Source: a virus
Strand: one strand, 5' to 3'
Length of the DNA: 46,341 nt
Virus record (IMG/VR): IMGVR_UViG_3300024346_000124
Coordinates: 1 to 46,341 of that record
Positions within the stretch are counted from its first letter, which is position 1. Each line of letters starts with the position of its first letter. Both the position numbers and the translations under genes were made by a program. The notes beneath the pieces were generated by a model. It did not search any database. It was not told where the DNA came from and saw only the letters and a program-made list of their open reading frames with translations. Of the stretch, positions 18,609 to 31,951 are shown one piece after another.

Positions 18609-18830
18609 TTACTTCTTGCTGACCACGATTTCATTGACGGAGCGAGCGTTGTTCGCATTGATACGGACAGCCTTGCCTTGGTCGTTGATGAACGAGTAGT
18701 ACAGGTAGTGCTTGACCTTTACAGGCTTCAGCAGACGAGCCATACGACCATCGGGAAGTACGACATACTTGGTTGCGTTGTTGACCCCGATGAGTTCGGA
18801 GGTCGCATTGTTGGTGGTTGGGTTTTCCAT
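18609..18830 (-). CDS. Hypothetical 73-aa protein
   Basis: The family is not recognised. A strand-rich middle (KYVVLPDGRMARLLKPVKVKHYLYYSF) resembles a small beta-barrel, and Asn is frequent. It lies between the DnaC-like loader and the ERF gene, all same strand and tightly spaced, so it probably belongs to replication or recombination. Start context is CACTATG without Shine-Dalgarno. Confidence 0.65.
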   Translation of the reverse strand: MENPTTNNATSELIGVNNATKYVVLPDGRMARLLKPVKVKHYLYYSFINDQGKAVRINANNARSVNEIVVSKK

Positions 18831-18839
18831 AGTGGGAAT

Positions 18840-19532
18840 TTATTGGGTAACAGAGGCTCCGTAGATTTTAAAATAGTCTTTCAGTCTTCGGATAATGGCT
18901 GTGCCAGTTTCTCCGTTATTGAATCTATCAGAAAGTCCGCTTCCGTTATAGTTTGTTGTTATAATTGTAGGGCGTTTATTTGAGGTACGCTCGTCAATGA
19001 TTGAAAATAAATCAGTCTCCATACGCTGGGTCAAGCGTTCTTTACCTAAATCGTCAATGACCAGCAGAGAGCAGGAAGTCAGACGCTCGATGACATCTCC
19101 GTGAGTCTGATTGGCAAAGCCCTGCTCAATCTTCTGCTCCAGTTTCCGCATCGTGAGGAACTCAGAGTACTTGGGATAGTGGTGAAGCCAGCCCTTGTTG
19201 AACATAGCCCAAGCACAGCGGGTCTTCCCTGTCCCTGTGACACCGTGGAGCAGTACGCTTTGGTCTGGGGTGTACTCCTCCAAAGCCTGTTGCATCTGGG
19301 GAGCGAGTTTACTGACCACGGTGTCTTGGAAAGCACTAGGCGTGTTCGGGTGCATCGACTTGAAAGCCCAGTCGTGCTTATCAAACACACCCCTGTAGGA
19401 GTAAGGGTAATCGTGATACTCTGCCGTGCCAAAGCAATCAAGGCACACAGACACATTAGTCTTAAACTTCACAGCACGGCTATCCCATACAGGAGTAGCA
19501 GGTGCTTTGCAATGAATGCACTTAGAAGCCAT
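18840..19532 (-). CDS. DnaC/DnaI-like helicase loader ATPase
   Basis: The 230-aa protein has an N-terminal zinc-ribbon-like pair (C5xxC8 and C30xxC33), Walker A GVTGTGKT (97-104), Walker B SLLVIDDLG (155-163), a sensor-1-like TTN (192-194) and a C-terminal RRL arginine region. This is the domain order of DnaC/DnaI-type loaders, which place the replicative helicase on origin DNA. No phage helicase gene was found, so it likely recruits the host DnaB. It overlaps the end of the initiator gene by 11 bp. Confidence 0.88.
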   Translation of the reverse strand: MASKCIHCKAPATPVWDSRAVKFKTNVSVCLDCFGTAEYHDYPYSYRGVFDKHDWAFKSMHPNTPSAFQDTVVSKLAPQMQQALEEYTPDQSVLLHGVTGTGKTRCAWAMFNKGWLHHYPKYSEFLTMRKLEQKIEQGFANQTHGDVIERLTSCSLLVIDDLGKERLTQRMETDLFSIIDERTSNKRPTIITTNYNGSGLSDRFNNGETGTAIIRRLKDYFKIYGASVTQ

Positions 19533-20157
19533 TGGAGTGGTCGTTGTTGGTTAAGGTTTTGGCTTTGGAGCCGTTACTGTTTATTACAAAAAGCCCCTGC
19601 CAGCCAAAGGCAATGCTTTTGTTTATGGAATCTACAGCCTGTGCCTCGTTAGCCCAAGACCCCAGCAACTTCAACTGCTCCGTCTTGGTCATAGGGGTCA
19701 AAGGCTTCTTGGTCTGCTTGCGGTACATCTCCCACTTTGTCCAAGCCTCCTTGAAAGACTCTCCGTAGGGCAATACCTCTGTATTGATATACTCTATCTT
19801 ATCTTCTTTTCTATATGTAGGAAGTCTACTTCCCCCCCTGCGGGAAATAGGTTTCCCCCTCCCTAGGAAATCTATAGCACCCACCAACGCTTGCTTCTCC
19901 ACCGTCCGTAGGATGCGTCTGCCGTTCAGTTCGATGCGGACTACCAACTGGTGGTCGATAAGGGTTTTGAGGACATTCTTGACCTGTCTGTCGCTGAGTT
20001 GCAAGGTTTGTGCAAGGTAGCCGTTGGAGGCGAAACAGCCCTCTTCATTGTCGAGGGCGTTCACGATTCCGTACACCACCTTCTCGGTGATAGTAAGCGT
20101 TTCCAACTGGAAGACCTCTACAGGAATCCAGACACCAGTAAACGATGGCTTGCTCAC
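19522..20157 (-). CDS. Replication initiator-like protein (lambda O / DnaD type) with iterons inside the gene
   Basis: The start is taken as GTG at 20157, overlapping the stop of the RecE-like gene (GTGA); a longer frame reaches 20232 but has no support. The 211-aa product begins with a winged helix-turn-helix (about 15-85, including LTITEKVVYGIVNALDN and LAQTLQLSDRQVKNVLKTL), then a basic low-complexity linker (about 96-116, GRGKPISRRGGSR) and a C-terminal helical domain (FKEAWTKWEMYRK to FGWQGLF). This is the plan of phage initiators that bind the origin and contact a DnaC-like loader, whose gene follows directly. The linker is encoded by a repeat array, exactly as lambda ori lies inside O. 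Confidence 0.75.
   Translation of the reverse strand: MSKPSFTGVWIPVEVFQLETLTITEKVVYGIVNALDNEEGCFASNGYLAQTLQLSDRQVKNVLKTLIDHQLVVRIELNGRRILRTVEKQALVGAIDFLGRGKPISRRGGSRLPTYRKEDKIEYINTEVLPYGESFKEAWTKWEMYRKQTKKPLTPMTKTEQLKLLGSWANEAQAVDSINKSIAFGWQGLFVINSNGSKAKTLTNNDHSNGF
19811..19871 (-). repeat. Iteron-like array A, candidate replication origin inside the initiator gene
   Basis: On the minus strand three units start at 19871, 19848 and 19825, each 23 nt apart, beginning GATTTCCTAGGG, TATTTCCCGCAGGG and GACTTCCTACATATAG. G-runs follow the first two. A 19-nt lead-in and the third unit are almost identical to those of the array at 28844. Initiators commonly bind such repeats; the location inside the initiator gene parallels lambdoid phages. 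Confidence 0.65.
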
Positions 20158-20945
20158 GAATAGATGCTTGGCTTGAGAGCAGGAAGCGTCTTGCAGGAGG
20201 CATAGCCCTCCCACTCGTTGATGGTTTCGCAAATCATATAGCGAGCCAAGTCACGAGTCACACAGTTCTTCCAAATCTGGAGTTCCTCATCGGAAACAGT
20301 ATACAGCACAGCACCGCTAGGCTCCGTGGTCTCAACAGCAAGAAACTGGAACGAGAAGGGCTTACTCCACATCATCTCTGCCATAAGGCAGTAGAAGCCA
20401 GCCTGTACCCAGTACAGCCTATCCTGCACATCATATCGGAACTTGAGAGCGTCTTGGCACGACTTGATGTCCGTGATGACACCACGCTCCACATCAACGA
20501 TGTCGAGTTTAGCCTTACAGTCGATTTTGAACAGGCTACCAAGTACGACCACCTCCTTGCGGATTCCAGAACTGAACTTGTCAGCGTTAGCCTTCATACA
20601 TTCAACGACTGCCTTACAGCAACGCTCCACGACTTCTTGGCTGTCAGCCTTGAGGATAATCTTGCCGACATTCTTCTCTTCAAATTCAGCCTTCAGAATC
20701 TTTCCCTCTTTGGTGCGACCATCGATGTCTGGCAGGTAAGCGATGGAGGCGAAGTACTCTTCTGGCTCTAGGATAGCCGTGTGGATGGCAGTACCGACAC
20801 GCATAGCCTCGCTGGTCTCTACCTCCTTCTGGTGCTTGAAGTGGAACGGTGAACGGACGAAAGCCTTAAAGCGTGAAGCGTTAAGACCTACAAGAGAGCG
20901 GTACTCGCTCTCCGACATTTTACTGGCTACTGGGTTGTTGGGCAT
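20154..20945 (-). CDS. RecE-like PD-(D/E)XK exonuclease (DUF3799 type)
   Basis: The 263-aa protein has the RecE C-terminal nuclease motifs: GTAIHTAILEPE with His55, KAKLD with Asp148, and ITDIKS with Asp159-x-Lys161, followed by helix YWVQAGFYC (RecE-type Q-x-x-x-Y). These make up the metal site of a 5'-3' exonuclease that resects double-strand ends for the ERF annealing protein. The 5' end overlaps the RusA-like gene by 26 bp, and the 3' end overlaps the initiator start. Confidence 0.85.
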   Translation of the reverse strand: MPNNPVASKMSESEYRSLVGLNASRFKAFVRSPFHFKHQKEVETSEAMRVGTAIHTAILEPEEYFASIAYLPDIDGRTKEGKILKAEFEEKNVGKIILKADSQEVVERCCKAVVECMKANADKFSSGIRKEVVVLGSLFKIDCKAKLDIVDVERGVITDIKSCQDALKFRYDVQDRLYWVQAGFYCLMAEMMWSKPFSFQFLAVETTEPSGAVLYTVSDEELQIWKNCVTRDLARYMICETINEWEGYASCKTLPALKPSIYS

Positions 20946-21384
20946 TTTGTTGGTTTTGGTTTTGGGTTATCGTACAGAGAACAGCGGGTTGCTGTGACCA
21001 GTACTTACGGACAGTTAGGCTCCAGACTTGGCTATCGTCAAGCCAGTATCCCAACTTTGTAAATTCATCCAGAATGACCTTGACTACATTGTCGCAGTCT
21101 GGTTTGGTTGTTTTTACAAGCGTTTTACACTTGTTAATCTTTGGTAAAAGGTACTTTGGGGGCGTGTAGTACAGGCTGATTTCGACCTCCACAGCCCCCT
21201 CAATGGGTACAGCGGGTACATACCGCTTGGCGTGTAGGCTAAAAGCGGATACCCAGCCCACCACCTTGGAGTTTTTCATCTTTCCAACAAACATCTGCCC
21301 AGTTTTGGACTTCAGAATCCTCAAGGCGGCTTGATGGGTGCTAGTTGGAGGTTCTAAGTTGCAAGCAATGAAAATATGTGTCAT
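20920..21384 (-). CDS. RusA-like Holliday junction resolvase
   Basis: The 154-aa protein has the RusA signature KPDCDNVVKVILDEF (Asp96, Asp98 region) followed by WLDDSQV (Asp116/117), the acidic residues that bind metal and cut four-way junctions. The C-terminus is a Gln/Asn-rich tail (QNQNQQNAQQPSSQ). It is the first gene of the minus-strand replication/recombination unit. Its start is only 9 bp from the start of the divergent HTH gene, so its promoter must lie inside that gene. Confidence 0.87.
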   Translation of the reverse strand: MTHIFIACNLEPPTSTHQAALRILKSKTGQMFVGKMKNSKVVGWVSAFSLHAKRYVPAVPIEGAVEVEISLYYTPPKYLLPKINKCKTLVKTTKPDCDNVVKVILDEFTKLGYWLDDSQVWSLTVRKYWSQQPAVLCTITQNQNQQNAQQPSSQ

Positions 21385-21393
21385 TTTAGTATT

Positions 21394-21849
21394 ATGGAAA
21401 GCGAATCGCCCTATGAAAGAGTCAAAACAGACAAGAAGTCTACAACCCTTGAAAAGTTAGACCCAAAGAAGAAAGAGGAAATCGTTTGGATGACTGAAGA
21501 GGGTCATACGCAACGAGAAATCGAAGAGAAAGTGGAGGTGTCTGGTCATACTGTCGTGGCGGTTAGGCAGGATATGGGTGATAAGGATATTGACCTAGGT
21601 ACATACAAGAAGGGCGTTAGCACTCTCTTCAAGTCTATTATTATGAAGGGTGCGATTCGTCTAGATACAGAAATCGACAAACTTCCTATCAGCCAGATGC
21701 CCCTAGCCCTTGCTATTCTTATCGATAAGGTGCAGACCCTTAACGACCAGCCTGTAGTAGTTACTGAACACAGACTCAAAGTTTCCCACGAAGCCATTAA
21801 TAAAATGCTCTCTGGTGAGATTATAGACATTTCCTCGGAAAAAAATTAA
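21394..21849 (+). CDS. Helix-turn-helix protein; candidate small terminase or regulator
   Basis: The ATG at 21394 is preferred over an in-frame ATG at 21376, which would overlap the divergent RusA start. The 151-aa protein has an HTH-like segment (VWMTEEGHTQREIEEKVEVSG followed by HTVVAVRQD) near residues 30-60, then helices, then IDKVQTLNDQPVVVTEHR. N-terminal HTH plus helical oligomer domain is the plan of small terminase subunits, but the gene is 10 kb from the large subunit and stands alone between two divergent units, which also suits a regulator. I cannot choose between them. Confidence 0.7.
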   Translation: MESESPYERVKTDKKSTTLEKLDPKKKEEIVWMTEEGHTQREIEEKVEVSGHTVVAVRQDMGDKDIDLGTYKKGVSTLFKSIIMKGAIRLDTEIDKLPISQMPLALAILIDKVQTLNDQPVVVTEHRLKVSHEAINKMLSGEIIDISSEKN

Positions 21850-21855
21850 GGCAAA

Positions 21856-21875
21856 AAGCCTTCCGCATAAGGCTT
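21856..21875 (+). terminator. Hairpin after the HTH gene
   Basis: AAGCCTT and AAGGCTT form a perfect 7-bp stem around CCGCAT, 6 bp after the stop of the HTH gene. The run after it (CAATT) is poor in T, so efficiency is uncertain. Confidence 0.5.
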
Positions 21876-21906
21876 CAATTGGGCAAATGGGTTAGGGATG
21901 GTGGGT

Positions 21907-21920
21907 GTCCGTGGTCGGAC
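21907..21920 (+). terminator. Small hairpin upstream of the shared 32-bp element
   Basis: GTCCG/CGGAC with a TGGT loop, followed 10-20 bp on by GATTTTGATTTT. It occupies the same place relative to the 32-bp element as the stronger hairpin at 27853. Confidence 0.35.
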
Positions 21921-21935
21921 TCGTTCCCGATTTTG

Positions 21936-21967
21936 ATTTTATGCTCCCAGCATCTGCTATCTTACCA
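21936..21967 (+). promoter_or_regulatory. Shared 32-bp element, copy 1 (probable promoter)
   Basis: This 32-bp stretch is repeated without mismatch at 27881-27912; both lie 80-140 bp before a plus-strand accessory gene unit and just after a hairpin. It contains the small palindrome ATGCTCCCAGCAT and ends TGCTATCTTACCA, where TGcTATCTT looks like an extended -10 box. A clear -35 is not seen. Reading it as a promoter with a built-in operator is an inference from position and duplication. Confidence 0.6.
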
Positions 21968-22004
21968 TTGAGCCAAGCGATGTCGGGTAAGACGAGGCGA
22001 TGCC

Positions 22005-22021
22005 CACTCCACTACGGAGTG
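22005..22021 (+). promoter_or_regulatory. Hairpin in the leader of the accessory unit
   Basis: CACTCC and GGAGTG pair around ACTAC, about 85 bp before the first gene. If transcription starts near 21975 it would be in the 5' leader. No function is known; a leader stabiliser or protein-binding site is possible. The whole gap 21850-22105 holds only these short signals. Confidence 0.3.
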
Positions 22022-22105
22022 AGGTCGCTACACCCTGTGGATGTTTAACCAAAATAAAAAACATTTGCAGGGAAGTCTTATTCTGAATTGTGCGGTAATA
22101 AAACT

Positions 22106-22609
22106 ATGAGCGATAACCTCATTGTTAAGTTCAAGACGGCAGTCACGGTGACTGTCCTCGAAACGGTAATCTACTCGTCTGTTGCCCCCAGCAGTTACGA
22201 GACTGATTACGAAGGCAACGGAAAGTTCCTGCGAGCGTTCGCAAAGATGAGCGGTGTCGGCTACCGCTCGTTCTTCAACATCACGCTGACTACCAAAAGC
22301 GAATCGACTGGCAATACCTACCGCCAGAAAATCTCCGCTTATGAGTTCGTCAAGATGGTGGCTTGGGAGTTGCAGTCTGGTGTGATTGAAGCGTTCAGCA
22401 AGTCGATGTTCCAGCACGAGAATGGTTTCGAGAATGACGCAACCAAAATCGTGGAGGACAATACGAAAGAACTGTATGCCTCGTTCGAAGGTGGCACTCA
22501 CTATTGGCGTGTGATGATGGCTGACGAACAGGACAAGGTTATGAACCGTGGCGAAAACTCCTCCACGGTTGCTGACTCGTTCGACACGGATGTGTCGGAG
22601 AATAAGTAA
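22106..22609 (+). CDS. Hypothetical 167-aa accessory protein
   Basis: The family is not recognised. It is soluble, strand-rich at the N-terminus (LIVKFKTAVTVTVLETVIYSS) and helical later, with an acidic end. Start at ATG 22106 has the A-rich leader GTAATAAAACT and no Shine-Dalgarno. It is the first gene behind the 32-bp element, so it is probably expressed early. Arg is coded by CGN here, unlike the late genes. Confidence 0.7.
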   Translation: MSDNLIVKFKTAVTVTVLETVIYSSVAPSSYETDYEGNGKFLRAFAKMSGVGYRSFFNITLTTKSESTGNTYRQKISAYEFVKMVAWELQSGVIEAFSKSMFQHENGFENDATKIVEDNTKELYASFEGGTHYWRVMMADEQDKVMNRGENSSTVADSFDTDVSENK

Positions 22610-22684
22610 TCGCTGACGAGTGTGAGTGCAGTCCGACCCTGCACTTGCATTTATCTGTCTTATCAAACTCCTACAAACACTCCT

Positions 22685-23524
22685 ATGAAGTTATTCAACT
22701 TCGACAACGCAAAGACTCGCAAGGGCGAGCAACTCGGATACTCCACCGCAATTCTTTATCTGTCTCCGTCAGATACGAGTGGAATCATCGACACCTGCAC
22801 CCACGCTACTGCACATTGCAAAGCGTTGTGTCTCAACACCGCAGGTATGGCTGGCATCTTCCCGAACATCATCGCATCACGCAAAAAGAAAACTGCGTGG
22901 CTGGCGAGCAACCCAGAAACTTTCTGGGCGAAGATTAGCCGTGAAGTTCAGAACCACGAGAACCTTTGCTACCGCAACACAAAACGGTTGAAGCGAAAGT
23001 TAAAACCGTGTGTCCGTATCAACGGCACATCGGATTTGTGGAGAATGGAGATGAGGTTGATTATGCATCGTTATCCAGATGTGCAGTTCTACGACTACAC
23101 GAAAGATTTCGAACGCATCGTTGATTGGCATATGGATAAGATGCCGATGAACTACCATCTCACCTTCTCGCATTCGGAAACGAATCTTGAAGAGAGCAAG
23201 TGGTGTCTCGCTAACGGAATCAATGTCGCTGTCGTTTTCGAGAACGATGGTCCGCTCCCATCGTCTTGGAATGGTTACGAAGTAATCGATGGCGATAAGA
23301 GTGACCTGCGATTCCTTGATGCGAAACTTCCGTATCCTAACGCTCTGTATGTTGTTCACGGAGTTGTTATCGGTCTCCGTGCCAAAGGTAAAGCGAAGAA
23401 GGCAACCGCAAAGGTAAACGGATTCGTCAACCCAACGAAGAGTGTGTTTCGTGGTGTTGCTTGGAGTAACCCGATTGATGGCGAAGAAGACGAGGAGCAG
23501 AATAATCTGAACCGCTATGAGTAA
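22685..23524 (+). CDS. DUF7227/gp88-like Cys-containing protein
   Basis: The 279-aa protein begins at ATG 22685. It carries a cysteine cluster (C38, C45, C49, in DTCTHATAHCKALCLNTAG), then RKKKTAWLASNP, VRINGTSD, VQFYDYTK, YHLTFSHSETN and DGDKSDLRFLD, in the order I recall for the DUF7227 phage family, which is related to mycobacteriophage gp88-type proteins. The Cys pattern suggests a metal or Fe-S site, as in radical-SAM-like enzymes, but the biochemical role is unknown. The C-terminus is acidic. It overlaps the next gene by 8 bp. Confidence 0.7.
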   Translation: MKLFNFDNAKTRKGEQLGYSTAILYLSPSDTSGIIDTCTHATAHCKALCLNTAGMAGIFPNIIASRKKKTAWLASNPETFWAKISREVQNHENLCYRNTKRLKRKLKPCVRINGTSDLWRMEMRLIMHRYPDVQFYDYTKDFERIVDWHMDKMPMNYHLTFSHSETNLEESKWCLANGINVAVVFENDGPLPSSWNGYEVIDGDKSDLRFLDAKLPYPNALYVVHGVVIGLRAKGKAKKATAKVNGFVNPTKSVFRGVAWSNPIDGEEDEEQNNLNRYE

Positions 23525-23735
23525 GTGCAACTGTGGTAGCGGTGTGGAATCGTTCTGGTACTTCGATGGTCATTGCATCGAACTGTTCAAGGGTTGTCCG
23601 AAGTGCGAAGCAGATAAGTTCAAGAAGTATCGCCCCGACATTAAGACGCAGTATGTGAGCGAAGAAACTATCGAGCCAGAGCCAGAGGTTCGCATCGTCA
23701 ATCGTCTGACGCAATGGGAGAACGAAAACCAATGA
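23517..23735 (+). CDS. Small cysteine-rich protein
   Basis: The 72-aa product has CNCGSG near the start and CPKC at about residue 27, enough for one zinc knuckle or ribbon, and a Glu/Pro-rich C-terminal part. No family is recognised. Both ends overlap the neighbouring genes by a few bases, which supports it as a real gene of the unit. Confidence 0.65.
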   Translation: MSKCNCGSGVESFWYFDGHCIELFKGCPKCEADKFKKYRPDIKTQYVSEETIEPEPEVRIVNRLTQWENENQ

Positions 23736-24331
23736 GTCGCTTCTATCGTAAGAAGTTAAACGCACAGGGCAGATACATCAACCCGCCTGTTCACGCAAAG
23801 AAGAAGCCAACCATTGCGACTGCAACGCACGGAACTGAAACGAAGTTATATAAGTTTGAGCGTGGTCCGTTAAAGGAAACTTCGACAGAGCGTACTATCC
23901 GAATCGCAAAAGAAGCAGAGGAGCGTTACTACGCAAGACGAGCAGAGAAGGAAGCAGGTAAAATGTTCAAGCAAAAGACTGCCGAAGAGAAGCGTGTGAT
24001 TGCAGAAGCAAAGCGGAAAGCAGAATACGATGCGTTATCCGAAGGTCAAAAGCGTTATGCAGATGTAAGAGAGATGCGAAGACTGCAAAAAAGAAAGTGT
24101 GGTGCTCCTGTTGGTATGTACAAACGCTCTGAGGAAGTAAGACAGAAGATGCGTGAGTCAGCCAAAAAGCGTTGGGCAGGACTGTCACCTGTACTGACGA
24201 AAGAAGAAAAGCGTTTGAAGCACAATGCGTATCAGAACGCTCGCAACCAAAGGCTTAGTGCTGAACGCCGACAGAAAAAAAGCACAGCGTTCGTGATTAC
24301 GATTACAATCACCGACCCAAACAAGTCGTGA
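23732..24331 (+). CDS. Basic, helical, probably nucleic-acid-binding protein with a NUMOD3-like motif
   Basis: The ATG at 23732 overlaps the previous stop (ATGA). The 199-aa product is very rich in Lys, Arg and Glu with a long charged helix (about 55-110). A segment RSEEVRQKMRESAKKRWAG near residue 133 resembles the NUMOD3 DNA-binding motif found beside homing nucleases, though no nuclease domain is visible. It is the last gene before a strong terminator at 24339. Confidence 0.65.
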   Translation: MSRFYRKKLNAQGRYINPPVHAKKKPTIATATHGTETKLYKFERGPLKETSTERTIRIAKEAEERYYARRAEKEAGKMFKQKTAEEKRVIAEAKRKAEYDALSEGQKRYADVREMRRLQKRKCGAPVGMYKRSEEVRQKMRESAKKRWAGLSPVLTKEEKRLKHNAYQNARNQRLSAERRQKKSTAFVITITITDPNKS

Positions 24332-24338
24332 AACTGTT

Positions 24339-24360
24339 GCTCACACCTTCGGGTGTGGGC
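24339..24360 (+). terminator. Intrinsic terminator with UUCG tetraloop
   Basis: GCTCACACC pairs with GGTGTGGGC (9 bp, one G.U) around a TTCG loop, 7 bp after the stop codon and followed by TTAACTTTT. The very stable C(UUCG)G loop makes this a confident call. The rest of the 199-bp gap to the next gene holds weak repeats (CTGTG/CACAG at 24486-24501) and no gene. Confidence 0.8.
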
Positions 24361-24530
24361 TTAACTTTTGCTGTGCTACATACTACGCCCTCAACAGCCG
24401 AGTACTCACAAGGCAGTAGACAGTAGCACGGCAATCCATTTCTCATACAGCGTGAACCCCGACCAAACTAACTAGGGTAGTATCGCTGTGTGAGTCCACA
24501 GAAACGAAACAAACATAAACAGATACGCCT

Positions 24531-25364
24531 ATGAAACAAATGATTGGTAAACTGCTGGCTTGGTTCTTACCAGCCAATACTACGGAGCATAAGTATGCTC
24601 TTTTGGAAATGCGAGTGATGTGCTTGGAGATGGAGAATAACAAACTCCGAGTGATGTTGGAGATGGATGACATCAACGCATCAACGAAAGAGCAGTTCAA
24701 ACCGCACTTCGACACGCTGGTGTCCAAGAGCGTTATGAGTTGGCTGAAAAACTGGCTCGATGATTACGATGTATCCGAATCCGAATCCTTCAAGGATGGT
24801 GTCGGAAGTATTCTCGATGACCACGATTTCAGCGACCAGATTGACGATGCACTTGGCAATCGTGATTGGTCTTACGAGTTGGAAGGTGTCTTGGATTACG
24901 ATGATGTCGCAAGCAAGGTTATCAAGAAGTTGGATTGGTCTGATGTCATCAGCGATAACGACATCGTTACTTCTGACGATATCGATTGTTCCGATGTAAT
25001 GCTAAAGTCCGAGCAACTCTCCGAAGACGAAATCGTCAAGCGTGGCGATTTGGCAGAAGAGATTAGCAACGACTTGAAGCGTGATTGGTTTAAGTCCCTC
25101 ATCGCTGAAATGGTTGACAGCGAATTCCAACACTCGCTTGGCAAGGCTCGTGAGAACGCACAAGCCAATTCCCAGAACGCAATCGATGACGAGATTCAGA
25201 ACGCTGTCGCAGAGCGTATCGAGTCGCAGTTCAAGACCAAGTTCGGAGCCGAGTGGGACAATTGGTTCAGCGAGAATATCCGACACACGGTACAAACTGT
25301 GCTGGGCGAGATGCTCCAATCCGCTTACGAACAGACCAAGAGCGAGGGCAAATCCAATGCCTAA
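24531..25364 (+). CDS. Acidic repeat protein of unknown function
   Basis: The 277-aa product begins with a short hydrophobic/basic segment (MIGKLLAWFLP) and then a helix. Residues about 74-155 are strongly acidic and made of imperfect 13-17-residue repeats built on a Leu-Asp-Asp/Trp pattern: LDDYDVSES, LDDHDFSDQ, RDWSYELEG, LDYDDVASK, LDWSDVISD. The C-terminal third is an amphipathic helical region. Such acidity could mimic DNA, as some anti-restriction proteins do, but nothing proves this. It overlaps the next gene by 8 bp. Confidence 0.7.
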   Translation: MKQMIGKLLAWFLPANTTEHKYALLEMRVMCLEMENNKLRVMLEMDDINASTKEQFKPHFDTLVSKSVMSWLKNWLDDYDVSESESFKDGVGSILDDHDFSDQIDDALGNRDWSYELEGVLDYDDVASKVIKKLDWSDVISDNDIVTSDDIDCSDVMLKSEQLSEDEIVKRGDLAEEISNDLKRDWFKSLIAEMVDSEFQHSLGKARENAQANSQNAIDDEIQNAVAERIESQFKTKFGAEWDNWFSENIRHTVQTVLGEMLQSAYEQTKSEGKSNA

Positions 25365-25617
25365 AAAGCCCAAGGTCTCCGAGGAACGCACCGCAGAGTT
25401 GGTTAAGATGTTAGAGATTCCAGAAACCATTTCGCCAGAGGATTACCCATCCGCACGGCTTCTTGGTGAACAGAATATCTTCATCGATATCAGTTCCGCT
25501 TGCAAAGCGTGGCGTAGAGTTGACCGAGGAGTATCCGAAAGGATTTTCAAGGTCATCAATGACGCTGGATGCGATGAGCACGAAGTCGATGCCCTCCTTA
25601 ACGCCATTACACTCTAA
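25357..25617 (+). CDS. Hypothetical 86-aa protein
   Basis: Translation likely starts at ATG 25357, inside the end of the acidic repeat gene (a longer upstream frame is a shadow of that gene). It has a basic N-terminus (MPKKPKVSEER), then helical segments and a C-terminal helix (DEHEVDALLNAITL). No family is recognised. Confidence 0.6.
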   Translation: MPKKPKVSEERTAELVKMLEIPETISPEDYPSARLLGEQNIFIDISSACKAWRRVDRGVSERIFKVINDAGCDEHEVDALLNAITL

Positions 25618-25723
25618 CCAAGAGTAATCGCTTCTGTCCCCAAAATTTGTGCGAAAAACATTGGAGCCTCCACAGGTTCTAGTGCGAAGTAGCACATAAC
25701 CCAAAGAAAAACCAAACACACAT

Positions 25724-26668
25724 ATGTTGTCCTACAACATTCAGTCCGATGCCGACCTCACAAGTCTGCGTCTTCAATACGAGCAGGAAGTCGCAAGACA
25801 TTCTGCTAACGCTCCGAAGGTTTCCTTCGGTGCAAACGCCCATAAGTATTCAGTCCGTGCCGTCCCGCTCTACACGAGCGAAGGCATTCCTGCTAACTGT
25901 TGGGGTAATCAGCGGTGCGATAATGGAGCAATCATTGGTAAGGTGTCCGAGAAATACGGCATCATCCAGAACGATGACTTCGAACATCGCATCCTCAACG
26001 GCTTCGAACAGAATGGTCTCACGCCTACTGCATTCGAATCCATCGTCACTCGTATGGGAGCACGAGCACACTTGTGCTACGATTTCCAAACCGAGAAGTT
26101 CGATGTTACCCACAAGGGTGATATCGTTGCCCTGCGTATCACCGCAAAGAACTCATTCGATGGCACTAGCCGTTCGTCTGTTTCTGTCGGTGCTCTTCGT
26201 TTGGTCTGCCTCAATGGTATGACATCGTTCCGTGAAGATGTGTTTATGTCTGTGCGTCACACACAGTCCGTATCCGCAGACTTCGTGAGCAACATCATCC
26301 AACAGGCGATGAACGAGTGGACTCATATTCGTCAGTCGTTCCAAAATCTTGCTACTAGCGACATCACGCAAGAGCAGGGTTGGAACGCTATCGAGAATAT
26401 GGTTAACCGTGGCATTCTTGGTGCTTCGCTTCGCAAGCAAGTCCACGAAGTCTGGGAACAACCATCGTATGAGGAAGACCGCAGTCGTAATTTGTGGAAT
26501 CTGTATAATGCCCACACGCAAGTGCTGACGCATAACCACGGCAACCACAAGTATGAGATGAAGCAACGCCAAGGTGGTGCTGTGCTTAACACTCTGCATA
26601 CGGCTTCGACCTCTGCTGAATTCGCACGACTTCTTCTGGCAACACCAGACGAGGTTCGCTCTAACTGA
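25724..26668 (+). CDS. DUF932-family protein
   Basis: The 314-aa protein matches the DUF932 pattern found in phages and conjugative elements: EKYGIIQNDDFEHRIL near 78, then VALRITAKNSFDGTSRSSVSVGALRLVCLNGMTSF near 135-170, and a helical C-terminal half. The biochemical role is unknown. Arginine codon use is striking: one AGA among about 20, the rest CGN. The start is ACATATG with an A/C-rich leader and no Shine-Dalgarno. The 106-bp gap before it contains no gene. Confidence 0.8.
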   Translation: MLSYNIQSDADLTSLRLQYEQEVARHSANAPKVSFGANAHKYSVRAVPLYTSEGIPANCWGNQRCDNGAIIGKVSEKYGIIQNDDFEHRILNGFEQNGLTPTAFESIVTRMGARAHLCYDFQTEKFDVTHKGDIVALRITAKNSFDGTSRSSVSVGALRLVCLNGMTSFREDVFMSVRHTQSVSADFVSNIIQQAMNEWTHIRQSFQNLATSDITQEQGWNAIENMVNRGILGASLRKQVHEVWEQPSYEEDRSRNLWNLYNAHTQVLTHNHGNHKYEMKQRQGGAVLNTLHTASTSAEFARLLLATPDEVRSN

Positions 26669-26675
26669 TATTACA

Positions 26676-26705
26676 GGGACGCATCATAGCAATGTGGTGC
26701 GTCCC
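26676..26705 (+). terminator. Long hairpin after the DUF932 gene
   Basis: GGGACGCATCA pairs with TGGTGCGTCCC over 11 bp (one G.U) with an 8-nt loop TAGCAATG, 7 bp after the stop. There is no U-run (CGCTTATC follows), and the next ATG is 11 bp away, so it may rather protect or separate the transcripts or attenuate them. Confidence 0.5.
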
Positions 26706-26715
26706 GCTTATCACT

Positions 26716-26904
26716 ATGAAAGCAACATTCGGTATCGGTCTCGAACCAACCAAGCGTAACAAAGTTTGGGTTGTGTCTATCTATATCAACCTGCCCGACA
26801 AAGCCCCAATGCTCGACTCTGAACATTCGTTCAAGACGAAGCGTGATGCGAAACTGTTCATCGAAGGATGGAAGGCTAACTGTGAGTGCAATAATCGTAA
26901 CTAA
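26716..26904 (+). CDS. Hypothetical 62-aa protein
   Basis: A small alpha/beta protein: two strands (ATFGIGLEP, KVWVVSIYINL) followed by a helix (KTKRDAKLFIEGWKANC). The start ATG 26716 lies right after the hairpin. It resembles in layout the 72-aa product at 27087 (strand, then a helix with RDA), but the family is not recognised. Confidence 0.6.
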   Translation: MKATFGIGLEPTKRNKVWVVSIYINLPDKAPMLDSEHSFKTKRDAKLFIEGWKANCECNNRN

Positions 26905-26905
26905 T

Positions 26906-27106
26906 ATGATTACGATTAACGGAGTTGAGTTAACTCCTGCACAGTTAGTGTCGCTCACCAAGTTGGTGAATGTCGGTTGGACTATTGATTACTCGTCAAT
27001 CCATAAACTGCCAGCAGAGCAATGCATTATGGTCGCTGTCAAAGGCAACCAGACAGGTGCTCAAATGGTAATCGGAATCGAAGCAGATGGCTACTCGCAC
27101 TCGTAA
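26906..27106 (+). CDS. Hypothetical 66-aa protein
   Basis: It begins MITINGVELTPAQLVSLTKLV, a strand and a helix, 1 bp after the previous stop, and overlaps the next gene by 20 bp. No family is recognised. Supported by tight packing in the unit. Confidence 0.55.
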   Translation: MITINGVELTPAQLVSLTKLVNVGWTIDYSSIHKLPAEQCIMVAVKGNQTGAQMVIGIEADGYSHS

Positions 27107-27305
27107 GTTTAGTTGGCTGGTAGTAGCACAGACCTACAAGTCTGCCGTCATCAAGGCTGAAACTGAACGAGATGCTATCGATGTGTTTCATAACATCGAA
27201 TACAATGGTTCAACCAGAGCGAAACAGGCATTGGAAGACAGCACCGCATACGAGGTTGAAGCACACGAGTATGATTGCCCTCGTCCTAAACGGAAACGAA
27301 AATGA
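27087..27305 (+). CDS. Hypothetical 72-aa protein
   Basis: A strand (KFSWLVVAQTYKSAVIKA), a helix (ERDAIDVFHNIEY) and a basic tail (PRPKRKRK). The stop overlaps the next start (ATGA). No family is recognised. Confidence 0.6.
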   Translation: MATRTRKFSWLVVAQTYKSAVIKAETERDAIDVFHNIEYNGSTRAKQALEDSTAYEVEAHEYDCPRPKRKRK

Positions 27306-27742
27306 GTCTCGATTTCGAATTCGCCAAGGGCATTAAGAAAGAGTTGATTGAGTATCGGCAGAAAGATGGTTCGTTGCATTGGTTGCCTCGTGCTCAATCG
27401 TTCGTCTTCTATCAGATGTTGTTACAACACGACATCGATGGTGAGATGACCGATAAAAAGATGTGCGAGATTAACAGACGCATAGAAATCATCAACGCCA
27501 GCATCAGCAAGCATTCGCATTGGTATTCAGCAACCGAAGGATTCCAACATCAGTTGAATGATGTCGTTGTCTATTGGGGGCTTACGACAAATGTATCCCA
27601 TATGTCTATGACCAAATGGAATGCTTGGTTTGCAAAAGCCCACGCTCGTAGAAGTATGGAGAATCATAAACAGTATGGCTGGCAGAATGCTGTATTGAAA
27701 CCATACGAACAGTTGTCACGAGCAGATGACAACGCTGGCTGA
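27302..27742 (+). CDS. Hypothetical 146-aa protein
   Basis: Mostly helical, with several Trp and His residues (LHWLPRAQSF, SKHSHWYSA, KYGWQN-like end). The family is not recognised. It overlaps its upstream neighbour by 4 bp and a tiny membrane peptide gene by 17 bp. Confidence 0.65.
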   Translation: MSLDFEFAKGIKKELIEYRQKDGSLHWLPRAQSFVFYQMLLQHDIDGEMTDKKMCEINRRIEIINASISKHSHWYSATEGFQHQLNDVVVYWGLTTNVSHMSMTKWNAWFAKAHARRSMENHKQYGWQNAVLKPYEQLSRADDNAG

Positions 27743-27797
27743 AGCAGTAGTGGTTGGCATATGGCTCTGCATATTAATCAAAGGATTGCGAAAATAA
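27726..27797 (+). CDS. 23-aa single-span membrane micropeptide
   Basis: MTTLAEAVVVGIWLCILIKG plus LRK: one hydrophobic helix with a basic end, starting 17 bp inside the previous gene. It is the last frame of this unit. A second tiny membrane peptide with a basic end lies in the same place at the end of the next unit (28536), which is the main reason to call it. Confidence 0.4.
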   Translation: MTTLAEAVVVGIWLCILIKGLRK

Positions 27798-27820
27798 GCA
27801 AAAACCTTGGGTTAAAGACA

Positions 27821-27837
27821 GGTTTCACAGCGAAACC
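27821..27837 (+). terminator. Short hairpin
   Basis: GGTTTC and GAAACC pair around ACAGC, 24 bp after the micropeptide stop. It may act together with the stronger hairpin at 27853. Confidence 0.35.
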
Positions 27838-27852
27838 CAGCCATCACACAGT

Positions 27853-27875
27853 CCACGCATCGTGCAGGTGCGTGG
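27853..27875 (+). terminator. Intrinsic terminator before the shared element
   Basis: CCACGCA pairs with TGCGTGG over 7 bp with a 9-nt loop, followed directly by ATTTCATTTT. Stem plus T-rich tail at the end of a gene unit fits intrinsic termination. The 32-bp shared element starts 6 bp later, overlapping the T-tract. Confidence 0.6.
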
Positions 27876-27880
27876 ATTTC

Positions 27881-27912
27881 ATTTTATGCTCCCAGCATCT
27901 GCTATCTTACCA
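27881..27912 (+). promoter_or_regulatory. Shared 32-bp element, copy 2 (probable promoter)
   Basis: Identical over 32 bp to 21936-21967, including the palindrome ATGCTCCCAGCAT and the extended -10-like TGCTATCTT. It precedes the Lys-rich gene at 27991 by about 80 bp and follows a terminator, a position that suits a promoter. Confidence 0.6.
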
Positions 27913-27990
27913 ATAGGAAAGCACGGCACTACGCACGGCTGACCTCCGCACGAACCAACAACAAGTGCGGTGACGGAACCACGAACGCAT

Positions 27991-28539
27991 ATGAATAAAC
28001 AAACCCCCGAAGAAATCGCCATCATCAAGGCGAAGGTGAAAGCGGAACAGGCGAAACAGAAGGCGAAGGAACTTCGTCTCGAAAAGAAAGCGAAGGCTTT
28101 CGACAAGGCGAAGGAACAGCGGATTGAAAAACTTCTCGCCCGATTGGAAAAAGCGAAGGACGCAAAGTTCCTCGCAGGTGCAAAGAAGGTTTCGTTTATC
28201 GTGACCCAGAAAAATTGGGACAGCGTAATCGAAACGCTTGAAGGTCACGGCAAGAATATCGCTGACCCGAAAGCAAAAATCGGGATGGGCGAAGTCTGCC
28301 ATTGGGCTGACAAGGTTGAGCCTATGCTCCTCGGTCTGATGTCCGCAATCAAGGCAGGTCAGAAAACCGCCTTCGAAAAAATGGAGGCGAAGGAAAAGCG
28401 GACGGTTCGCCGTCTGACCGCTGGCATCAGCCAAACGAAAATCAAGCCAGCGAAGTTCAAAGCCATCCTGTTGAAGCAAGCCAAACGCATCAACAATATC
28501 GTGGAGGACATCGGAGAGTTTAAGAAATATATTTCGTGA
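27991..28539 (+). CDS. Lysine-rich helical protein
   Basis: The ATG at 27991 (GCATATG) is preferred to an in-frame GTG at 27970. The 182-aa product starts with a long charged helix of Lys/Ala/Glu (about 8-60), has a small globular middle (KKVSFIVTQKNWDSVIETLEGHGKNI) and ends with basic helices. It is strongly basic, so DNA or RNA binding is plausible, but no family is recognised. Confidence 0.65.
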   Translation: MNKQTPEEIAIIKAKVKAEQAKQKAKELRLEKKAKAFDKAKEQRIEKLLARLEKAKDAKFLAGAKKVSFIVTQKNWDSVIETLEGHGKNIADPKAKIGMGEVCHWADKVEPMLLGLMSAIKAGQKTAFEKMEAKEKRTVRRLTAGISQTKIKPAKFKAILLKQAKRINNIVEDIGEFKKYIS

Positions 28540-28595
28540 GCCTCATCGCCCTCGGAATATTCATTATCGTCCTGCGTATGTTGAACGGAAAATAA
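28536..28595 (+). CDS. 19-aa single-span membrane micropeptide
   Basis: GTG start overlapping the previous stop (GTGA): MSLIALGIFIIVLRMLNGK. One hydrophobic helix with a basic tail, in the same setting as the peptide at 27726. It is short enough to arise by chance; the parallel with the other unit raises it above noise. Confidence 0.35.
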   Translation: MSLIALGIFIIVLRMLNGK

Positions 28596-28631
28596 TCCGT
28601 TACGCATCGCACGGCATCACGAGAAAAGAAG

Positions 28632-28670
28632 TGCATCCTCTCGCCCTACGGGGCGGGGGGGTGCATTCTT
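28632..28670 (+). terminator. Strong intrinsic terminator
   Basis: A 15-bp stem (28632-28646 with 28651-28665, including four G.U pairs) closes a TACG tetraloop and is followed by TTCTT. It ends the accessory region before the long non-coding stretch. Confidence 0.75.
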
Positions 28671-28972
28671 CCTCACAAGCCTCATTCTCCAACGCATTCA
28701 GATACACACTTTTTACTTGCAAAAGACTAGTAGTGATGAAGGCAGGGGTTATTAGGGGGGTAGTTGGTATATGGTGTCAAGTGGTATCTGCTTGGTAGGG
28801 TCAATATATGGCGTTTTTTAATGTTCTGGGTAGGGGGAAGTGTATTTCCTAGGGGGGTGTAATAGATTTCCCTAGGGGGGTGCTATGGATTTCCTACATA
28901 TAGAATAGGGTATAGGATAGACTATAGAGATACAGGTATTGACATATCGATTCCTCTGGGGAAAGTAGACAT
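28671..28972. other. Non-coding region with G-runs; possible origin or control region
   Basis: No convincing gene is seen in these 302 bp. It holds several runs of four to six G on the plus strand (28744-28760, 28833, 28851, 28874), a T-run with an AT-rich patch (28801-28823), the iteron-like array at 28844-28910, and an AT-rich stretch with repeated TATAG words (28900-28930) just before the gene at 28973. This is the kind of content expected for an origin or a late promoter region; a promoter for the right-hand unit must lie here or inside it. Confidence 0.5.
28844..28910 (+). repeat. Iteron-like array B, second copy of the array in the initiator gene
   Basis: Three units start at 28844, 28866 and 28889 (spacing 22 and 23): ATTTCCTAGGGGGGTG, ATTTCCCTAGGGGGGTG and ATTTCCTACATATAGAA. 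The third matches the third unit of array A over TTCCTACATATAGAA, and GGGTGCTATGGATTTCCTA (28878-28896) matches the lead-in of array A with one mismatch. Shared order and spacing suggest binding by the same initiator. Confidence 0.65.
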
Positions 28973-29482
28973 ATGAACCACAAGGAGTCGGAGTTGGTAG
29001 ACATTCTTAACATCACCAGAGCCGAATTTAAGTATCTACGGAAGAATCTGGCTAATTCTGATAAGAATGTCGGTCCTCTTTGGATGCGTGAAGAGTCAAA
29101 CAAGCCAGAACACCTGCGTACCGTGTATTGGACTGATGCTGGTATGTACTTTCTAAGGGCTTACCTGTCTGAGAAGGCTGGTCAGCCTGTGATTAAGCCA
29201 GATACTGATATGAAAGTAATGAGTAAGGCTCAGTTTCTTGATATGGTGCATAAGACCAAGTGGGTAGGCAAGGTTGTCAGAAACCTATACAAGAACCATA
29301 TGGTCTTGATGGTGGAACATAACTCTGGGTTTAATGTTATGGTTAACTGCCGTGACAACCAACTATTTTCCAAAGGTGCGTGGGTCGTAGTTGACACCAA
29401 TGAGAATAGCCACACCGTTCGTGGTCAGTCTTTTAAATCTTATGAAAAAGCCTTCGAAACCCTCTCCAAAAAAGGAGTCTAA
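28973..29482 (+). CDS. Hypothetical 169-aa protein, possible DNA-binding N-terminus
   Basis: The N-terminus (ELVDILNITRAEFKYLRKNL) could be a helix-turn-helix; a strand-rich C-terminal part follows (HMVLMVEHNSGFNVMVNCRDNQLF, then GAWVVVDTN). It is the first gene after the non-coding region and so of the late/packaging unit. The start is ACATATG with no Shine-Dalgarno. A small terminase role is conceivable from its place upstream of the large subunit, but no match is recognised. Confidence 0.65.
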   Translation: MNHKESELVDILNITRAEFKYLRKNLANSDKNVGPLWMREESNKPEHLRTVYWTDAGMYFLRAYLSEKAGQPVIKPDTDMKVMSKAQFLDMVHKTKWVGKVVRNLYKNHMVLMVEHNSGFNVMVNCRDNQLFSKGAWVVVDTNENSHTVRGQSFKSYEKAFETLSKKGV

Positions 29483-29576
29483 CTGTGGCACAAAAGATTT
29501 GTGCAAAACCCTAGGTATTCCTAAATTCAAACCTCTCGACCACGAGCAAAAGGAGAAGTCTAAAAATGGGAAGTAA
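29442..29576 (+). CDS. Small Lys-rich 44-aa protein
   Basis: MKKPSKPSPKKESNCGTKDL... ends KEKSKNGK. It overlaps the end of the previous gene by 41 bp and the start of the next by 11 bp. Two cysteines; no family. Called on packing and frame only. Confidence 0.4.
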   Translation: MKKPSKPSPKKESNCGTKDLCKTLGIPKFKPLDHEQKEKSKNGK

Positions 29577-29910
29577 AGGAGGTCGTGGTATGGCACAGCC
29601 TACCTATTTGCCGACTACTGGTACAGACCTGTCGCAGTTTAACAACACTCCTATGAACCAAGGCTTTCAATGGAATAAGCCACAGGGTTTTAAGGATGCT
29701 ACGGAATCTAATATTGGTACTTCTAATTACACTCCAAATTTCTTGTTCCAAGATTCGCAGTTTGGTATGAGCGGTTTCCAAGGTCAGTCTAACGGTAACA
29801 CTAATCCTGCTACTAACGGTAATGTTGGCTATAATGGTGGAAACCAAGCAGTTGACCCAAACAGTTTCTGGAAACCTATTAACCAATATGGACCTTCGAT
29901 GTTCAGATGA
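29566..29910 (+). CDS. Asn/Gly/Gln-rich 114-aa protein
   Basis: Low-complexity, uncharged product (e.g. SGFQGQSNGNTNPATNGNVGYNGGNQ). Asn/Gly-rich proteins in late phage units are often minor virion parts, but there is no match. The stop overlaps a tiny following frame (ATGA). Confidence 0.55.
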   Translation: MGSKGGRGMAQPTYLPTTGTDLSQFNNTPMNQGFQWNKPQGFKDATESNIGTSNYTPNFLFQDSQFGMSGFQGQSNGNTNPATNGNVGYNGGNQAVDPNSFWKPINQYGPSMFR

Positions 29911-29981
29911 ATATTGACCCTCACACAGGCGATGATGAGGATGATGATGATGGCGAAAATTTATATTTCCAAGACCAATAA
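29907..29981 (+). CDS. Tiny acidic 24-aa frame
   Basis: ATGA overlap with the previous stop, product with an Asp run (GDDEDDDDGEN). A competing frame in the same DNA reads MAKIYISKTNNKIEVLT and ends at the TAG inside the hairpin at 29992. Either or neither may be translated. Confidence 0.25.
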   Translation: MNIDPHTGDDEDDDDGENLYFQDQ

Positions 29982-29991
29982 CAAAATCGAA

Positions 29992-30013
29992 GTTCTGACC
30001 TAGCGGTCAGAAC
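29992..30013. terminator. Perfect 9-bp hairpin upstream of tRNA-Thr
   Basis: GTTCTGACC and GGTCAGAAC pair around TAGC. There is no T-run after it on the plus strand, so it may be a processing or stabilising hairpin near the tRNA rather than a terminator. Confidence 0.4.
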
Positions 30014-30031
30014 GATACAGAACTGATTTAC

Positions 30032-30103
30032 GCATTGGTAGCACAATGGTTGTGCAACAGTTTTGTAAACTGTAGGTTGTCGGTTCAAGTCCGACCCGAT
30101 GCT
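30032..30103 (+). tRNA. tRNA-Thr(UGU)
   Basis: Acceptor GCATTGG pairs with CCGATGC (one G.U); D-arm GCAC/GTGC around AATGGTT; anticodon stem ACAGT/ACTGT around TTTGTAA, anticodon TGT; T-arm GTCGG TTCAAGT CCGAC; discriminator T. CCA is encoded at 30104-30106, unlike the phage tRNA-Arg. It reads ACA and possibly other Thr codons. The HNH endonuclease gene begins 11 bp after the CCA. Confidence 0.95.
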
Positions 30104-30116
30104 CCACTTTAACACT

Positions 30117-30494
30117 ATGGAAGAAAAATGGCTCCCAGTACCAATCAAGCAATTTGAGGGCTTGTACGAGATTTCCGACCAAGGGAGGCTAAGGTCTTGC
30201 CTCAAGACTACAAGTGACGGCAGAAGGCTTCCCAGCAGGGTAATTAAGCCTACTGCTACCAAGGCTGGATACTTACAGTTCAAGTTGCATAACAATAAGT
30301 TTAGGTTTAATGTAAATGCACACAAGATGGTTGCTATTACTTTCGGTCTCATTCATTGGAATGAACACTCTTTAACGAATATGCAGATTAATCACATTGA
30401 TGGAAACAAGCACAATAATTGTGCATCGAACCTAGAGGCTTGCACCCCTAGCGAGAATCTTATCCACGCTTACAAGACAGGACTTAGAAAGTAA
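30117..30494 (+). CDS. HNH homing-type endonuclease with NUMOD4
   Basis: The 125-aa protein starts with a NUMOD4 motif (WLPVPIKQFEGLYEISDQGR) and ends with the HNH_3 core: VNAHKMVAITFG, INHIDGNKHNN and NLEACTPSENLIHA. The catalytic His and Asn are present, so it looks active. Such genes are mobile and often sit free-standing beside conserved genes. It lies between tRNA-Thr and the virion genes; its stop overlaps the next start (TAATG). Confidence 0.9.
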   Translation: MEEKWLPVPIKQFEGLYEISDQGRLRSCLKTTSDGRRLPSRVIKPTATKAGYLQFKLHNNKFRFNVNAHKMVAITFGLIHWNEHSLTNMQINHIDGNKHNNCASNLEACTPSENLIHAYKTGLRK

Positions 30495-31951
30495 TGGCTG
30501 AAGACCCTTTTGCTAAGATTGTACAGGACTGGCAGGATGCCAACCCTACAGTAAGACCTAAGACAAAACAACCAGCGTCAGCAACTACAATCATTAGTAA
30601 CAATCCCAGAACTACTGGTACTGTTGCTGGTGCTTACTTTGCTGGAAGTAAAGCAGTTGGTGCATACCGTACTGGCATCCTTGAAGCAACACAGGCTCTT
30701 CGTGCAAGAGGAGTTGAAGAGGTTAAAATTGCTAAAGAACTTACTAAACTTGGATTTGATGTAACTTCCAGCACTCCTACAGGCGGTAAGGCACTTGCTA
30801 CTGCTGGTCGTGATATTGCTTCTAATTCACGGTGGGGTAATTTGCCTTGGGGTAAGGGTTATGAAAATGCAGCAAATATGGAAAGAATTCCTCAACTTAC
30901 AATGAGAGGAAGAGAAGCACTCCCTTATGTTGCTGATGCTGGAGCACCTACTAGACTTGTTTCTACTGCCGAATCCGCAGTAGTAGACGCTAAGAAACTT
31001 GCACAGGCTGTTGCTGATGGAAAGATTACTCCAGAACAGGCTCTGAAATTTTCTACAAAAGGACTACAGCCAGCAGTTGCTGACCCTGTATCTAGATGGG
31101 TAAAGGCTGGAAAAGGATATCAAGCAATTATGGGTGGCAGTCAGCCTGTAAATTCAATGGCATCTGTACGAAGCGGATTCAGAGGTAATAAGATTCCTAT
31201 GGCAATGGCTGGTATGGAACTTGGTGGAGCCGTGTATGATGTTGTTGGTGAAGATGGAGTTTTTAATAGAGAATATATGAAACAGGTTGGAAAATCTAAA
31301 GACCCACTTATTCAAGGTCTTGGTGTAGCACTTGCTGGGCTTCAGTCTACCAAAAGAATTGGCAGAGGTGCTGGCGAGGCTCTTACATTTGGCGGTCTTG
31401 GTATGTCTGGTCTTCCAGACGCTGGAGAAAGAAGAGATGCTATTGAAAATGCCCATAGAATCTTTAGAGAAGAAAAGGCAAAGGTTACTGGAGACTCAAG
31501 CAAAAGTCATCCAGTTGAACTAACTCATACTTATCCGTTGAGCGACAATCACGGTCTTAAGCAGAATGAAAACGAAAAAGGAAACGAACTGTTTAAGGCA
31601 GTTGAGTCTTCTCCTAGATTTAAGGCTATTTATTCCAAGGAACTTGCTAGACTTGGTGTGCCACAAAGTATGTGGACTCCCGATGTGTATAAGGGTCCAG
31701 AACACGAATACAGCATCGATATGAATGACAACATTAGAGCAACGCCTTTTGGTTCTGCCCTTGAAAGACAACAGATGCAAATTGCGTTTGAAGATGCTTC
31801 TCTGCAAAAATACAACAGAGGGCGGTCTGTACTTAATGTTGACCCTTCTGCTGGACCAATGGGTTGGAGTACTATTAGAGGTACAGACCCAAGAGATTTA
31901 GGTCTTAATCCAGATGCTGGAAACTATTCTACTGACGGATTTATTCGATAA
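30494..31951 (+). CDS. 485-aa probable virion protein
   Basis: The family is not recognised. It has an Ala/Gly-rich stretch near residues 45-60 (TVAGAYFAGSKAVGAY), helical middle parts, a Gly-rich segment near 290-310 followed by GERRDAIENAHRIF, and a polar C-terminus. The last arrangement recalls the 692-aa protein at 12807. It is located just before the large terminase with abundant AGA codons, so it belongs to the late unit. Confidence 0.6.
   Translation: MAEDPFAKIVQDWQDANPTVRPKTKQPASATTIISNNPRTTGTVAGAYFAGSKAVGAYRTGILEATQALRARGVEEVKIAKELTKLGFDVTSSTPTGGKALATAGRDIASNSRWGNLPWGKGYENAANMERIPQLTMRGREALPYVADAGAPTRLVSTAESAVVDAKKLAQAVADGKITPEQALKFSTKGLQPAVADPVSRWVKAGKGYQAIMGGSQPVNSMASVRSGFRGNKIPMAMAGMELGGAVYDVVGEDGVFNREYMKQVGKSKDPLIQGLGVALAGLQSTKRIGRGAGEALTFGGLGMSGLPDAGERRDAIENAHRIFREEKAKVTGDSSKSHPVELTHTYPLSDNHGLKQNENEKGNELFKAVESSPRFKAIYSKELARLGVPQSMWTPDVYKGPEHEYSIDMNDNIRATPFGSALERQQMQIAFEDASLQKYNRGRSVLNVDPSAGPMGWSTIRGTDPRDLGLNPDAGNYSTDGFIR

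Follow-up and report, generated by a model that had tools for sequence, protein, structure and literature searches.

A second copy of the replication-origin module, and probably a second origin, ahead of the late genes of a phage genome

The DNA analyzed here, IMG/VR record IMGVR_UViG_3300024346_000124, is a stretch of 46,341 nucleotides, referred to below as the window. Its ends overlap, with positions 1 to 781 matching 45561 to 46341 at 757 of 781 positions (97%, 24 differences). The genome is therefore probably circular or circularly permuted, with a length of about 45.6 kb (~45,560 bp), and the window was apparently put together from slightly different strains. Genes for an O-like initiator, a DnaC-like helicase loader, an Erf annealing protein, a RecE-like exonuclease, and a RusA resolvase lie together on the minus strand, and a single plus-strand open reading frame (positions 1359 to 12512) encodes a very large protein of 3,717 amino acids adjoining the late genes. 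A 36-nt direct repeat (21932 to 21967 and 27877 to 27912; 97% identical) resembles, on the minus strand, part of a tRNA-Pro; ARAGORN predicted no tRNA at either place, and the pair possibly represents decayed tRNA genes. Searching phage records with the nucleotides from 18800 to 31000 returned zero matches. A genome search for the host gave weak, partial matches to the initiator only, and no host was found.

Two arrays in the window share a common layout, in which palindromic units with G runs between them lead into an A/T-rich repeat that melts easily. One array, termed ori1 here, lies within the initiator gene; the other, ori2, lies about 9 kb away in noncoding DNA, and the two are inverted relative to each other, with their melting sides facing outwards (Table 1). 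A family search with the protein of the late gene that follows ori2 returned nothing above the cut-off.

Table 1. Coordinates of the two arrays, their genes, and neighboring elements in the window
Feature	Position	Strand	Evidence or remark
ori2 unit 1, GGGAAGTGTATTTCCT, imperfect 16-bp palindrome	28835..28850	+	Conserved in relatives
ori2 unit 2, GTGTAATAGATTTCCC	28857..28872	+	Conserved in relatives
ori2 unit 3, GTGCTATGGATTTCCT, joined to conserved tail ACATATAGAATAG	28880..28895	+	Conserved in relatives
A/T-rich repeats (ATAGAATAG..GATAG) beside ori2 units, candidate DNA unwinding element	28896..28936	+	Fourth lowest duplex stability (45-nt stretches, whole window)
ori1 unit 1, GTGCTATAGATTTCCT, within initiator gene	19865..19880	-	Sequence
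ori1 unit 2, GGGAAACCTATTTCCC	19842..19857	-	Sequence
ori1 unit 3, GGGAAGTAGACTTCCT	19819..19834	-	Sequence
A/T-rich 12-nt-type repeats of ori1, candidate DNA unwinding element	19778..19818	-	Second lowest duplex stability (45-nt stretches, whole window)
O-like replication initiator: winged helix, disordered linker encoded by ori1, C-terminal domain	~19522..20154	-	HTH_36, 8e-8; PHROG 678 'replication initiation O-like', 2.7e-15
DnaC-like helicase loader	18840..19532	-	PHROG 50, 8e-28; IstB_IS21, 2e-12
TTGACA, candidate -35 element	28939..28944	+	Invariant in relatives with ori2
First late gene (169-aa product), a putative small terminase subunit judging by position only	28973..29482	+	Homologues directly upstream of TerL in other clades
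TTGACA-20 nt-TAATAA between C runs, promoter-like, directed away from ori2	28749..28781	-	Conserved in clades with ori2 and several without
Strong hairpin between upstream genes and ori2, candidate terminator	28628..28672		Relatives fold to a hairpin here

The promoter-like element (28781 to 28749, minus strand) points leftwards to the hairpin about 100 nt off, an arrangement that may be compared with lambda oop, and a short RNA adjoining ori2, running from this element to the hairpin, is possible. The orientation of the TTGACA-20 nt-TAATAA element relative to the late genes varies between clades.

The likeness of the two arrays had been noted from the sequence alone, and its core held up, although its geometry did not. 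Half-sites (ATTTCC) in ori2 begin at 28844, 28866, and 28889 on the plus strand, confirming the spacing of 22 and 23 nt given for the noncoding array; the in-gene units begin at 19871, 19848, and 19825 on the minus strand, so that both spacings are 23 nt there and, contrary to the earlier claim, the two arrays are not spaced equally. TTCCTACATATAGAA occurs exactly twice in the window, at 28891 to 28905 (+) and 19809 to 19823 (-), ending unit 3 in both arrays (chance expectation, 0.13 with up to 2 mismatches), and GGGTGCTATGGATTTCCTA is exact at 28878 to 28896 (+) and is matched at 18 of 19 bases, with 1 mismatch, at 19864 to 19882 (-) (chance expectation, 0.01 with up to 3 mismatches). However, the 18-of-19 match pairs unit 3 of the noncoding array with unit 1 of the gene, so the units do not follow the same order; rather, the noncoding unit 3 combines the body of gene unit 1 with the tail of gene unit 3. 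When the in-gene region was aligned locally with the rest of the window, the segment from 28844 to 28910 (+) scored 45 against the initiator gene (-), compared with about 16 for the next best place and with an average of 14.7 (largest, 20) over 150 dinucleotide-preserving shuffles. The likeness is in fact longer than that segment, to which it had been confined, and runs on through the A/T-rich stretch to about 28936 (84 nt, 71%). A generic scan, which ignored unit sequence and looked for two or more runs of G or C with A/T repeats after them, found just two sites in the window, namely, ori1 and ori2. Rfam gave a weak match to mir-3689 at 28835 to 28895 (E = 0.13, far under the cut-off), which we discarded as chance, and nothing else at the array.

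Initiator-based searches yielded 80 loci that were kept for comparison. In two clades that are sisters in the tree, the second array is present in 18 of the 18 records that cover the place, some of which are near-copies of each other; absence of the pair from close relatives, proposed earlier as a refutation, was thus not observed. The other refutation proposed earlier, a chance-level match in shuffled sequence, was likewise survived. In every one of them, ori2 lies on the opposite strand, 7.6 to 8.9 kb from ori1, in noncoding DNA directly before the homologue of the gene at 28973, and additional copies of ori2 were seen in fragment records. The L010 record is 88,287 bp long, about twice the usual genome length of the group, and is possibly a doubled assembly. 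In other clades, clade-specific patterns and the generic scan detected a second array in 0 of 15 near-complete records (L023 to L031 and L111 to L147), with the generic scan giving ori1 alone as a single site. The place of ori2 is taken in these clades by a tRNA cluster or, in the L026/L027 clade, by other unrelated DNA; what appear to be several tRNA genes lie before the small-terminase homologue in L125, L147, L159, L187, L146, L029, L163, and L137, and at least one lies there in L131. No second array was found in the nearest named phage by initiator, Cruim01 (33% identity; 19.5 kb scanned of 55.7 kb), or in the nearest by terminase, C75C1 (whole genome scanned). Four matches to a 17-mer, in L036, L041, L045, and L046, were discarded, their contexts being unrelated. 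The simplest history may be one gain of ori2 with a possible loss in the L023 to L027 clade, which sits on a long branch whose place in the tree is unsure.

In these relatives, the noncoding array is far better conserved than the DNA flanking it. In a set of eight diverged genomes that includes the window, the units of ori2 have a mean pairwise identity of 0.85 (85%), compared with 73% for the ori2 A/T-rich repeats, 100% for TTGACA, and 44 to 63% for the flanks. Sequence variants, moreover, tend to be shared between the two sites of a genome: both copies contain CCTACA in most of the window clade, CCCCCA (or a sequence close to it) in L020 and L104 to L109, ATAGTA in L011 and L020, and CAGATA in L017, L021, and L103. 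Permuting ori1/ori2 partners gave a P value of 0.007 within the window clade and <0.0001 over 14 genomes, with kinship ignored. Because of this disregard of kinship, and because the copies mismatch at a T/G position in L008 and L010 and read ATAGTA/ATAGAA in L106, the matched changes support shared recognition short of proof. Across the wider family, the unit palindromes differ greatly (GGAA..TTCC, GGCAA..TTGCC, TGCGG..CCGCA, and GCCGA..TCGGC), whereas the A/T repeats CATATARNAMAGARGATAA, the runs of G or C, and the 22- to 23-nt spacing are constant; recognition was therefore altered many times under a stable layout.

The in-gene copy bears a complementary signature. The predicted model of the initiator has a winged helix, a low-confidence linker (residues 93 to 125; pLDDT < 50), and a C-terminal helical domain, and ori1 is encoded in the predicted disordered linker. 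Among 17 relatives, synonymous codons are 87 to 92% identical over residues 91 to 123 (74% in a short stretch beside an alignment gap) but mostly 54 to 76% identical elsewhere in the gene, with single bins at 43% and 80%. With this peak of synonymous conservation at the array, ori1 is under nucleotide-level constraint, as expected for an origin within a gene. Taken with a noncoding array conserved above its flanks and variants that track ori1, this agrees with the earlier proposal that shared binding rather than coding explains the pair, and the comparisons give good support to the view that one initiator would bind both ori1 and ori2. A fold search with the initiator gave no match at E ≤ 0.001; its winged-helix N terminus showed weak similarity (E = 0.01 to 0.03) to PDB entries 4pql, 4pt7, and 5kbj, which we take to be RepA_N-type plasmid initiators with winged-helix N termini. 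The initiator genes of L103 to L151, with their diversified iteron palindromes, form a natural series for the evolution of initiator specificity.

The A/T-rich segments were assessed by duplex stability, calculated from nearest-neighbor energies for 45-nt stretches over the whole window. The ori2 segment falls within the least stable 0 to 0.8% of the locus in every relative tested and is the least stable stretch of the locus in several, and the A/T motif CATATARNAMAGARGATAA (up to 3 mismatches) is present in 24 of 24 records tested. Among the functions suggested by the sequence-only reading, a second origin is the best fit because the melting element was copied too.

Comparison with known systems points the same way. 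Two iterons together with an A/T-rich segment make up the minimal unwinding unit of lambda (PMC7466680), and the composition of both arrays, iterons with an A/T-rich segment, suggests origins. Similarity to ori-lambda in gene O extends to the O-like initiator, the mid-gene iterons joined to an A/T-rich segment, and the adjoining loader gene (PMC3349717, PMC7466680); whereas lambda has a single such origin, with four 18-bp iterons, this phage has three units 22 to 23 nt apart and a second, noncoding copy. The closest known case is SPP1, where oriL lies in gene 38 and oriR in the noncoding late region, both have repeats and an unwinding element, and gp38 binds both (PMC6316719, PMC3485210). There, stalling of forks by gp38 at oriR, and with it the start of a switch to concatemers, has been proposed (PMC6316719, PMC3485210), and this theta-to-concatemer switch at the second site is a model even in SPP1 (PMC3485210). 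Judging by sequence, the phage studied here likewise has an initiator gene holding an origin with repeats and an unwinding element and, in the noncoding late region, a second array with the same sites and an unwinding element; recombination genes are found in both phages, and the origins are about 12 to 13 kb apart in SPP1 and 9 kb apart here. Unlike SPP1, this phage has an O-like initiator with a DnaC-like loader, inverted copies, palindromic units with G runs between them, and an ori2 followed directly by a conserved TTGACA and the gene for a putative small terminase. The ori1/ori2 pair thus resembles, in anatomy, the oriL/oriR pair as described for SPP1.

We therefore hypothesize, at a probability of roughly 65%, that the array at 28835 to 28936 is a second copy of the replication-origin module of the phage, at which the same initiator and loader would act and which would serve as a start site and/or a fork barrier. 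The O-like initiator would bind the units of ori1 and ori2 and melt the A/T-rich side, and the DnaC-like loader would put host DnaB at the melted DNA. As the modules point outwards, a helicase loaded at ori2 beyond its units would be expected to run with late transcription; ori2, which likely works as a second origin, might be a start site firing into the late genes along their direction of transcription. It might also, or instead, act when bound by the initiator as a barrier to forks from ori1, and such a barrier could, in line with the proposal for SPP1 oriR, trigger a change from theta to concatemer replication close to the terminase genes. Clades related to this one lack ori2 and still do well, which makes it dispensable for this kind of phage.

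The chief rival, which we consider unlikely, is that ori2 is an operator at which the initiator, bound upstream of a late promoter (TTGACA at 28939), would switch the terminase-late operon on or off with no replication start. A position just upstream of TTGACA fits a regulatory site too and counts against the origin reading; in relatives with ori2, about 3 nt separate the end of the conserved module from this invariant hexamer, and about 37 nt separate it from the first late gene. An operator, however, would have no need of copied A/T-rich repeats, no consistent -10 hexamer was found after the TTGACA of the late gene, and TTGAC precedes the homologous late gene in most clades lacking ori2 as well, which argues that the promoter-like element is independent of the array. 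Control of the late promoter or of packaging, the other roles raised by the sequence-only reading, keeps some plausibility since both the conserved TTGACA and the gene for the putative small terminase adjoin the array. The two kinds of role could also be joined, although we hold this to be doubtful: ori2 would then be a combined replication, late-expression, and packaging switch, at which initiator bound ahead of the terminase promoter would act both on forks, by starting or stalling them, and on expression of the late operon, and concatemers would thereby form at the place where packaging begins. On this view, ori2 would have been gained once in the ancestor of the group and would have evolved since then in step with ori1.

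Considerably less probable is a titration or handcuffing site, which would take up surplus initiator or pair with ori1 and so limit initiation. The same units, inverted and at a fairly fixed distance of 7.6 to 8.9 kb though some intervening genes differ, would suit such a site. Control iterons of some plasmids need no melting element, and those of the incA type lie outside the origin and have no unwinding element; ori2, unlike these, has a conserved candidate unwinding element, and in several relatives no other stretch of the locus is less stable. It is very improbable that ori2 is a dead remnant left by duplication of the initiator gene, a reading to which a short translated stretch like initiator residues 95 to 125 in two relatives might point: the array alone is present, with stops, is better conserved than the surrounding DNA, keeps its place and orientation in 18 records, and changes along with ori1. 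Lastly, a chance or low-complexity match, for which the G runs common in both arrays might speak, is refuted by the shuffles and by the relatives, and the likeness of the two arrays is real, nonrandom, and conserved.

Paired origins are already well known from SPP1; what the second origin does there is still a model. The group described here offers many natural genomes with and without a second origin that share the same initiator family and a similar gene order, and wide variety has arisen among its recognition sites. What a second origin does, and likewise the joint change of an initiator and two distant sites, can therefore be tested by comparison in this group.
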